Shown here one piece after another: positions 11,420 through 15,389 of a stretch of DNA of 39,534 bases. Origin of the DNA: Phycisphaeraceae bacterium (GTDB lineage Bacteria > Planctomycetota > Phycisphaerae > Phycisphaerales > Phycisphaeraceae); NCBI GenBank assembly GCA_019634195.1, contig JAHQVV010000162.1, positions 1 to 39,534 of the forward strand. The letters are read 5' to 3'. Positions within the stretch are counted from its first letter, which is position 1, and each line of letters begins with the position of its first letter. Under the pieces are notes generated by a model. It ran no database searches. It was not told the origin of the DNA and saw nothing but the letters and a program-made list of their open reading frames with translations. A program made the translations under genes and the position numbers.

Positions 11420-12856
11420 ATGCCCGACGACAGCACCTACCAGTCCCCCCTCGCCAGCCGAAACGCCTCCCCTGCGATGCAGCGGATCTGGTCGCCACGA
11501 TTCAAGTTCACCACCTGGCGCAGGCTCTGGCTCGCCCTGGCCGAGAGCGAGCAGCAACTCGGTCTATCGATCACAGACGAGCAACTCGGCCAGATGCGCG
11601 AGCACCTCGATGACATCGACTACGACGCCGCAGCGGGCTACGAGAAGAAGCTCCGCCACGATGTCATGGCCCACGTGCACACGTTCGGTGACGCCGCGCC
11701 CAAGGCCATGCCCATCATTCACCTGGGTGCAACAAGCCAGTTCGTGGTCTGCAACTCCGAGCTCATCATGCTCCGCGAGGCACTGACGCTCGTGGCCAAT
11801 AAGCTCGCGACCGTCATCGATCGCCTGGGCAAGTTTGCCAAGCAATACCGTGGCATGCCCGCGCTGGGGTTCACCCACTACCAGCCCGCCCAGCCCACGA
11901 CCGTCGGCAAACGCGCGACGCTTTGGGCACAAGAGCTCGCCATGGCCCTCGAAGAGATCGAGCACCGCCTGAGCACCCTCCGCTTCCGCGGCGTCAAGGG
12001 CACGACCGGCACGCAGGCCTCCTTCCTCGCGCTTTTTGACGGCGGCCACGCCAAGGTCGATCAGCTTGACGAACTCGTCACCGAAAAGATGGGCTGGGAT
12101 AAAGACAAACGCTTCGCGGTGACGGGGCAGACCTACCCGCGCCTGCTCGACGCGATGGTCGGATCGAGCCTGGGCACCGCCGCTGCGGCGCTGATGAAGA
12201 TGGCGACGGACATCCGCCTGCTTTCTAACCGCATGGAGATGGATGAGCCCTTTGAAAAGAAACAGATCGGCTCCAGCGCGATGCCTTACAAGCGCAACCC
12301 GATGCGCTGCGAGCGGATGTGCGGCCTGTCCCGCTTCGTGATCTCGCTGGTTCAGGCGCCCTATACCACCGCCGCCGAGCAGTGGATGGAGCGGACGCTG
12401 GACGACTCGTCCTGCCGACGCCTGACGCTGCCCGAGCCGTTCCTCGCGCTCGACGGCGTCCTCGACATCGCCATCAACGTGACCTCGGGCCTGGTCGTCT
12501 ACGACAAGATGGTCGAGGCGAACCTCGCCAAGTACCTGCCCTTCATGGCCACCGAGAACATCATGATGGCGGCGGTCCAGCAGGGCGGCGACCGCCAAGA
12601 ACTGCACGAAGTCATCCGCAAGCACGCGATCGAGGTCGCGACCAACGTCAAAGAACACGGCGCAGACAACGACCTGCTCGATCGCCTCGGTAATGAGTCG
12701 GGCTTCAAAGGCATCGATCTATCCGACGTTCTCGACGCGACCAAGTACGTCGGCCGATCCCCCGAGCAGGTCGACGCGTTTATCGCCGAGGTTGTCGAGC
12801 CGATACGCGATCGCTACGGCGAGGCGTTAGCCTATGATCCAACATTGAAGGTTTGA
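11420..12856 (+). CDS. purB: adenylosuccinate lyase
   Basis: Fumarase/aspartase superfamily signature [59 protein letters not shown]. Start 11378 also possible. Confidence 0.93.
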
Positions 12857-12868
12857 ATCTGACATGTG

Positions 12869-12902
12869 TAGCGGGTGACGCGAAGCGTCCCGTGCCAAAC
12901 CA
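12869..12902. repeat. REP-like palindromic element, intergenic copy
   Basis: TAGCGGGTGACGCGAAGCGTCCCGTGCCAAACCA; 30/34 identical to 15058-15091 inside lipB. Confidence 0.75.
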
Positions 12903-12929: not shown

Positions 12930-13619
12930 ATGAAATTGATCACCCACACCATCGCACTCGCCTGTATTGCCTGCCTGCTCACCGCCTGCAGCGAATCGAC
13001 ATCCGACGAGGTCCTGCCCGAGGGCGCCGCGCCCAACGACCCGCCCGCCGATCGCGAGGTCGATCCAAGCCCACAGCCCGAACCTGAAGTTCAGGCCCCC
13101 GAGCCACAGCCCGAGCCCGAGGCGACCACGCTGCCGCCGTTGCCCCTACCCCTGCCCGAAGGCGACGCCGAGCGCAGCATAGCGCCCGGCATCACCTACG
13201 TCCTGCCCGAAGGCTGGACCGTCGGCCCGGCCCGGCAGATGCGTCTGCTCACGCTGATCCCGCCCGACGCAGACGGCGCGGACCTGGCCATCTCCAAGTG
13301 GCCCGGCGACGTCGGCGGGTTTGCCAGCAACGTCCAACGCTGGGTCCGGCAGGCTGGCCTGCCTCCGATCCCCGGGCTCATGACCGCCGCCGCTTCAGAC
13401 TTTGAGAAGTTCATTGTCGGTGACACGACCGCGACCTGGATCCCACTCATGAACGAAGGCACGAACGTCGCGATCCTCGCGGTGTGGGTCCCGCGTGGCG
13501 AGTCGCCAGAGAACCCCACGGAGACCTGGACGTTCAAGCTGACCTGCAAGGCCGACCAAGTGCAACAAATCGCCCCGGCGGTCCGCGCGTTCTGTGAGTC
13601 GGTCAAGTTTGAAAATTGA
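12930..13619 (+). CDS. putative lipoprotein
   Basis: Signal peptide with lipobox LLTACSES; Pro/Glu-rich linker (PQPEPEVQAPEPQPEPE); globular C-terminal half. Confidence 0.75.
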   Translation: MKLITHTIALACIACLLTACSESTSDEVLPEGAAPNDPPADREVDPSPQPEPEVQAPEPQPEPEATTLPPLPLPLPEGDAERSIAPGITYVLPEGWTVGPARQMRLLTLIPPDADGADLAISKWPGDVGGFASNVQRWVRQAGLPPIPGLMTAAASDFEKFIVGDTTATWIPLMNEGTNVAILAVWVPRGESPENPTETWTFKLTCKADQVQQIAPAVRAFCESVKFEN

Positions 13620-14585: not shown

Positions 14586-15389
14586 ATGATAAGTGAAACC
14601 ATCGGCAGACGCCCGCTCGTGACGCCAAACGTGAACCCCAAACCGCCCATCCAAGTCCAAGACCAAGGCCTCGTCCCTTACGAGCAGGCCCTGACGCTGC
14701 AGCGCAAACTCAACCAGGCTGTTATCGACGGCAACGCCGACCCCACCATCCTGCTCGTCGAGCACCCGCCGGTGATCACCCTGACCCGCCGCGCCGCGCC
14801 GAACCTGCTGGCCGACGACGCAACGCTCGCCAAACTCGGGGTCGCCACCGCCGAGACCGACCGCGGCGGGGACATCACGTACCACGGCCCGGGCCAGCTT
14901 GTCGCCTACCCCATCCTGAAACTCGCTGACTTCGGCCTGAACCTCTCCAGCTACATGCGATTGCTCGAGCGGGCGGTCATCGACACCGTCGCCACCTGGG
15001 GCATCACCGGCCACGCCGAGTACGGCGCGACGGGTGTGTGGGTGGGCCTCAACTGTTTAGCGGGAGACGCGCAGCGTCCCGTGCCGAATCATGTAGCAGT
15101 TCCATCAGCAAAAATCTGCGCCATGGGTGTCCGCATCCGCAAGAACACCACGATGCACGGCCTAGCCCTCAACGTCGTCCCCGACATGTCGCACTTCGAC
15201 CTGATCGTCCCCTGCGGCCTCGATGGCCGACCGGTGACGAGCATGAAACAACTGCTGGGCGATCAATGCCCAACCATGGCGCAAGTCAAAGACATCTTCA
15301 CACAGGCGATACGCAACGGCTTACAAAACACCGATCGATCAGCTTCGTGCACTAACGGATCGGCACCAAGAACGACCGCTGGCTCTTGA
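14586..15389 (+). CDS. lipB: octanoyltransferase LipB carrying a ~20-aa internal insertion
   Basis: VEHPPVITLTRRAAPNLL, ETDRGGDITYHGPGQLVAYPIL, AKICAMGVRIRKNTTMHGLALNVVPDMSHFDLIVPCGLDGRPVTSM. Start could be GTG 14631. Confidence 0.92.
   Translation: MISETIGRRPLVTPNVNPKPPIQVQDQGLVPYEQALTLQRKLNQAVIDGNADPTILLVEHPPVITLTRRAAPNLLADDATLAKLGVATAETDRGGDITYHGPGQLVAYPILKLADFGLNLSSYMRLLERAVIDTVATWGITGHAEYGATGVWVGLNCLAGDAQRPVPNHVAVPSAKICAMGVRIRKNTTMHGLALNVVPDMSHFDLIVPCGLDGRPVTSMKQLLGDQCPTMAQVKDIFTQAIRNGLQNTDRSASCTNGSAPRTTAGS
15058..15091. repeat. REP-like palindromic element, in-frame copy within lipB
   Basis: TAGCGGGAGACGCGCAGCGTCCCGTGCCGAATCA; 30/34 match to intergenic copy at 12869-12902. Confidence 0.75.

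Follow-up and report, generated by a model that had tools for sequence, protein, structure and literature searches.

How does a stretch of repeated, palindromic DNA come to lie within the reading frame of a core enzyme, and what becomes of it there? The question is raised by lipB on a 39,534-nucleotide stretch of DNA from a Phycisphaeraceae bacterium (contig JAHQVV010000162.1 of assembly GCA_019634195.1), referred to here as the window. The original prediction had placed a palindromic repeat in frame within this gene and likened it to the Rickettsia palindromic elements (RPEs), the classic case of palindromic repeats lying in frame in genes (PMC10969869). We searched the source assembly (G000; 3.62 Mb in 246 contigs, 89.6% complete) and related genomes. 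The features of the window that enter the argument are as follows.

14586..15389, + strand: lipB, lipoyl(octanoyl) transferase, 267 aa (open reading frame and family match)
15048..15107, + strand: added loop segment LNCLAGDAQRPVPNHVAVPS, after GVWVG and ahead of the strand that bears the catalytic lysine (sequence, alignment of relatives, AlphaFold)
15055..15085, + strand: REP unit GTTTAGCGGGAGACGCGCAGCGTCCCGTGCC, translated in the lipB frame to (L)AGDAQRPV(P) (28/29 against the degenerate family consensus)
15086..15103, + strand: possible REPIN spacer remnant GAATCATGTAGCAGTTCC (weak likeness to spacers)
15111..15113, + strand: codon of K176 (AAA), invariant (alignment of LipB sequences)
15213..15215, + strand: codon of C210 (PCG motif), invariant (alignment of LipB sequences)
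12865..12902, + strand: second, single REP, intergenic (87% identity to the lipB unit)

The extra segment of LipB

LipB is an above-cutoff member of NCBIfam family NF010925 (178 bits; cutoff 155), and its translation runs GVWVG-LNCLAGDAQRPVPNHVAVPS-AKICAMGVRI. Re-reading of the sequence returned the same insert coordinates (15048-15107), peptide and lipB frame as had been proposed. By its LipB relatives, the host belongs to Phycisphaerae (Planctomycetota). K176 and C210 are both invariant across 48 LipB sequences and align with Lys142 and Cys176, respectively, of M. tuberculosis LipB (1w66). We take this pair to be the catalytic dyad of the M. tuberculosis enzyme and assign the same role to K176 and C210. 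No second protein with an LplA/LipB catalytic domain was found in a search of the ~90% complete assembly. Since both residues are kept and no other LplA/LipB-type protein was found, the enzyme probably works with its insert.

Structural modelling, which had been suggested as a check, placed the insert in a beta-hairpin loop. In the AlphaFold model (48 sequences; mean pLDDT 89.8) it lies between strands 148-154 and 174-185, in a low-confidence region (pLDDT ~54 at residues 161-170), and is predicted to form a flexible, exposed loop just ahead of the catalytic K176. No Rfam family was found at the insert site. Folding of the whole G000 LipB loop gave an unremarkable hairpin z-score (-0.32), and the REP in lipB was for this reason identified by its sequence and not by folding energy.

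A GTAG-type REP family in the genome

By eye, the 34-mers from lipB and from the intergenic site are identical at 30 of 34 positions, as had been reported, and the alignment of 15054-15091 with 12865-12902 gives 87% identity over 38 nt. The intergenic copy sits between an ORF ending at 12856, which by eye we take to be purB-like, and a putative lipoprotein ORF (12930-13619). Within the window, a 20-mer core occurs at these two sites only (shuffle mean 0.11). Allowing up to 3 mismatches, the core has 83+73 matches genome-wide and 8 in the reversed control; for the 25-mer TAGCGGGNGACGCGNAGCGTCCCGT and at most 2 mismatches, the numbers are 84+73=157 and none, respectively. The genome search that had been called for thus returned ~157 close copies. 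The prediction was to fall if the segment proved ancient and the genome held no such DNA repeat elsewhere; the DNA family is abundant.

We extracted 130 copies as stretches around the listed matches, a set that leaves out some weaker copies, and derived the consensus GTGTAGCGGG[TAC]GACGCG[AC]AGCGTCCCGTGCG. Head-to-head inverted pairs (REPINs), typically 78-85 bp across their outer edges, account for 103 of the 130; the other 27 had no detected partner, in some cases owing to contig ends. The REP is predicted to fold into a bulged hairpin of -7 kcal/mol, with modest z-scores (-1.1 to -2.3). The family carries the two marks that define the GTAG superfamily, a GTAG or similar unpaired tag and, 3' of it, an imperfect short hairpin of 20-40 bp, and its copies are numerous, mostly intergenic and often in inverted pairs. 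We conclude that the repeat is a GTAG-type REP/REPIN family.

The unit in lipB starts with TTAG where the family has GTAG, and its 28/29 match to the consensus was equalled by none of 2000 shuffles. Hence a palindromic mobile repeat with a genome-wide DNA family behind it does lie in frame in a functional-looking core enzyme. The segment of 20 added residues is real, but only ~11-13 of them come from the REP unit (C/L-AGDAQRPVP-N/H). The nucleotides that follow, CGAATCATGTAG, resemble REPIN spacers by mean score (p=0.014) and not by best score (p=0.13); the loops of close relatives are already 14-18 residues long. The HVAVPS residues after the REP may derive from a REPIN spacer or from the ancestral loop, and a truncated REPIN is a possible description of the insert.

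The LipB loop in related genomes

The idea that the LipB family normally runs straight through this point did not hold: across 50 Phycisphaerae relatives the loop measures between 1 and 56 residues. Such hypervariability, with loops that are often long in the class, could suggest that the loop of G000 simply expanded in the ordinary way and that it resembles the REP by coincidence or convergence. Against this, besides the 28/29 match and the 0/2000 shuffles, the other testable loops (~41 of the 50 are long enough) reach at most 19 positions against the family, apart from that of G002 with 23, and the 25-mer has no match in the genome-wide control. The consensus, shuffle and control counts refute this explanation, to which we give next to no credence.

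The G002 loop, RDAGGTERPAR, is encoded by DNA matching the family at 23/29 positions (0/2000 shuffles), at the same site and in the same orientation and frame. The insertion may therefore not be private to the LipB of G000, although the copy there is near consensus and that of G002 is degenerate. No convincing REP unit was found in the LipB loops of G003 and G001 (AGDR... in the G001 loop is at most a possible decayed one). Sequence comparison suggests that the copy is probably common to G000 and its closest sister species, G002. Two independent insertions into one tolerant loop, in place of a single ancestral event, are a possibility that we consider doubtful. They would fit the contrast between a near-consensus and a degenerate copy, the REP-richness of both genomes and the uptake of unrelated palindromes by this loop in other genera, but not readily the agreement of the G000 and G002 copies in site, orientation and reading frame. 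A conversion event may lie behind the difference between the two copies. In G002 (L033) and G003 (L034), REP pairs also precede lipB by ~1 kb, close to the place of the window's intergenic REP without coinciding with it.

Inverted repeats of other kinds occur in several long LipB loops of relatives, with z-scores as low as -10.7. The repeat unit of the G010 loop, GGGTATCGGGTATCGGG, has 268 matches in the G010 genome and none in the control, and the pattern is rare in G023, G018, G013 and G045. A different palindromic family has been captured at the same LipB loop in at least one genus (G010). The long loops of L061, L065, L068 and L081, the last of which is that of G010, hold inverted arrays of short tandem units.

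A RAYT-like transposase flanked by REP pairs

Contig C198 of G000 carries a gene for a Y1-type transposase with REP pairs on both sides. RAYTs are understood here as defined in PMC2817692. RAYT loci flanked by REP pairs were found in G000 (L063/L341), G002 (L342) and G015 (L343), and in these three genomes a Y1/HUH gene stands between inverted pairs of the REP, the arrangement of a REPtron. The best NCBIfam match of the C198 protein is NF047646 (REP-associated tyrosine transposase), at 60.1 bits, below the cutoff of 80; we call the protein RAYT-like and do not assign it to NF047646.

Among 24 genomes, G000 included, a close RAYT was present in all 6 REP-rich genomes and in 2 of the 18 REP-poor ones (p=0.0002, with kinship ignored and with 'close' set at >=170 bits after the scores had been seen), an association that we treat as supporting evidence only. 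G012 and G019 bear a RAYT yet have no G000-type REP by pattern. On the flanking arrangement and this distribution, the C198 RAYT is likely to be the mobiliser of the REP family.

Two further homologues were seen in G000. L062 (contig C50, ORF 1261-1836), also RAYT-like, lies between inverted pairs of another REP family (CCGAGCACGAAGCGTCAGCGAGTGACC), which gives the genome a second REP-transposase system. A third homologue (contig C154, 5990-6451) has 44% identity to the C198 protein over its residues 3-157.

In-frame units in two tRNA synthetases

Tracing reading frames through all extracted copies revealed two more conserved genes with a single in-frame unit, both encoding essential tRNA synthetases: ileS (L017; TIGR00392, 774 bits), which reads VDKAFD-CVAGDAKRPVSL-RKAAM, and alaS (L235; TIGR00344, 676 bits), which reads FEDVLA-GVAGDAKRPVFP-GDEAFKLHDTYGF. 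The units of lipB, alaS and ileS share one orientation and one reading frame, and both synthetases contain AGDAKRPV. No further clear genic copy was found among the extracted G000 copies. In a sample of 101 copies from G002, the clear genic units again lay in AlaRS, IleRS and LipB. Long ORFs that run across REP pairs in G000 and G002 were left out of this tally: by eye we judged them to be out-of-frame or antisense readings, or ORFs prolonged upstream past the true start.

Alignment of 16 relatives for each gene showed the AlaRS and IleRS units with identical boundaries in G000, G002 and G003, and neither unit in the 14 other relatives, G001 included. In a tree of both synthetases from which the REP columns had been left out, G000 pairs with G002, and G003 pairs with G001. 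As G001, the sister of G003, lacks the units, loss or another event is needed, and the simplest history would be insertion in the ancestor of the genus followed by loss or replacement in G001. Transfer between species may also have contributed to the sharing. At the REP site of AlaRS, G001, G041, G012 and G016 (L254, L256, L257 and L258) carry unrelated inserts of several tens of residues.

Do such units persist because they are useful? The segments of LipB, AlaRS and IleRS could be domesticated, that is, kept by selection, either as peptides or as mRNA hairpins affecting translation or stability. This would fit the use of one frame and one orientation by the three genes and the conservation of AGDA[KQ]R in AlaRS and IleRS of G000, G002 and G003. 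Many of the listed G002 REPs read TCGCGGG, and the AlaRS copy retains TAGCGGG. Between G000 and G002, fewer fourfold sites differ inside the synthetase REPs (2/11) than outside them in these genes (234/548), but this contrast is not significant (p=0.13). The G002 LipB copy has 3 changes among 7 aligned residues, and the segments were lost from, or never present in, G001. Moreover, with ~4-5 of the 6 frames open, three copies would share a frame by chance about 1 time in 20 (a rough estimate). We consider domestication decidedly improbable and take neutral retention of the units in core enzymes as the default. A broader proposal, that unrelated palindromic mobile repeats are captured time and again at the LipB loop across Phycisphaerae and that in this genus the REP peptides in the three enzymes are selected and conserved, also appears unlikely.

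Proposed origin of the units

Taken as a whole, the data are best explained by a RAYT-mobilised GTAG REP unit that inserted in frame and was tolerated in the LipB loop, with units in AlaRS and IleRS passed on by inheritance (probability roughly 0.85). The RAYT-like transposase on C198 would probably mobilise the family. A single REP, possibly a truncated REPIN, would have entered the exposed beta-hairpin loop before the catalytic lysine in frame, and the loop appears to tolerate changes in length. The unit may have been kept because its translation in that frame is open and hydrophilic (AGDA[K/Q]RPV), and retention of the unit would be neutral or mildly tolerated in an enzyme of intact activity. 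From the same family, AlaRS and IleRS would each have received one in-frame unit that was already present in an ancestor of the sister species and has been inherited since.

Because the synthetase copies are clearly common to related species, and the LipB copy probably to the closest one, we suggest that peptides derived from a repeat can turn into permanent components of core enzymes. The locus offers an example, spread over several species and fit to be placed on a tree, of how a mobile hairpin turns into a lasting piece of core proteins; it comes with a likely transposase, relatives with empty sites and a pair of tRNA synthetases that serve as replicates. With it, one can test whether inserts of this kind are simply tolerated at flexible loops or later gain function.

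Comparison with known repeat systems

GTAG REPs occur in many phyla, Planctomycetes among them, and according to the main text of PMC3733652 their genic copies include some in frame in tRNA synthetases and DNA-repair genes. In-frame intragenic REPs, tRNA synthetases included, are in this respect already known. The family described here agrees with the GTAG REP/RAYT system of that text in its GTAG-tagged short imperfect hairpin, high copy number, inverted pairs, REP-flanked RAYT and some in-frame copies. It differs from the cases given there in that the AlaRS and IleRS units are common to several species and that one frame is used in three genes. That main text, taken apart from its supplements, does not name Phycisphaera, and the LipB case was not found in it. 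As far as the searched literature goes, which does not extend to the supplementary target-ORF list of PMC3733652, the LipB case, the cross-species inheritance of the AlaRS and IleRS units and the unrelated palindromes at one LipB loop are new.

As in REPINs (PMC3116915), the commonest genomic form consists of two inverted REPs and a short spacer, here ~78-85 bp overall. In contrast to REPINs, the genic copies are single units, in LipB possibly with part of the spacer.

The resemblance to RPEs that had been proposed appears to be general and not specific. RPEs are ~150 bp long and encode a conserved peptide in many genes (PMC10969869). The present family shares with them the presence of palindromic repeats in frame within unrelated core genes. 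By description, it departs from them in host and length class (~31 bp per unit), in its link with a RAYT-like gene and in the number of genes, three, in which it was found; the element is a GTAG REP/REPIN with a RAYT-like transposase.
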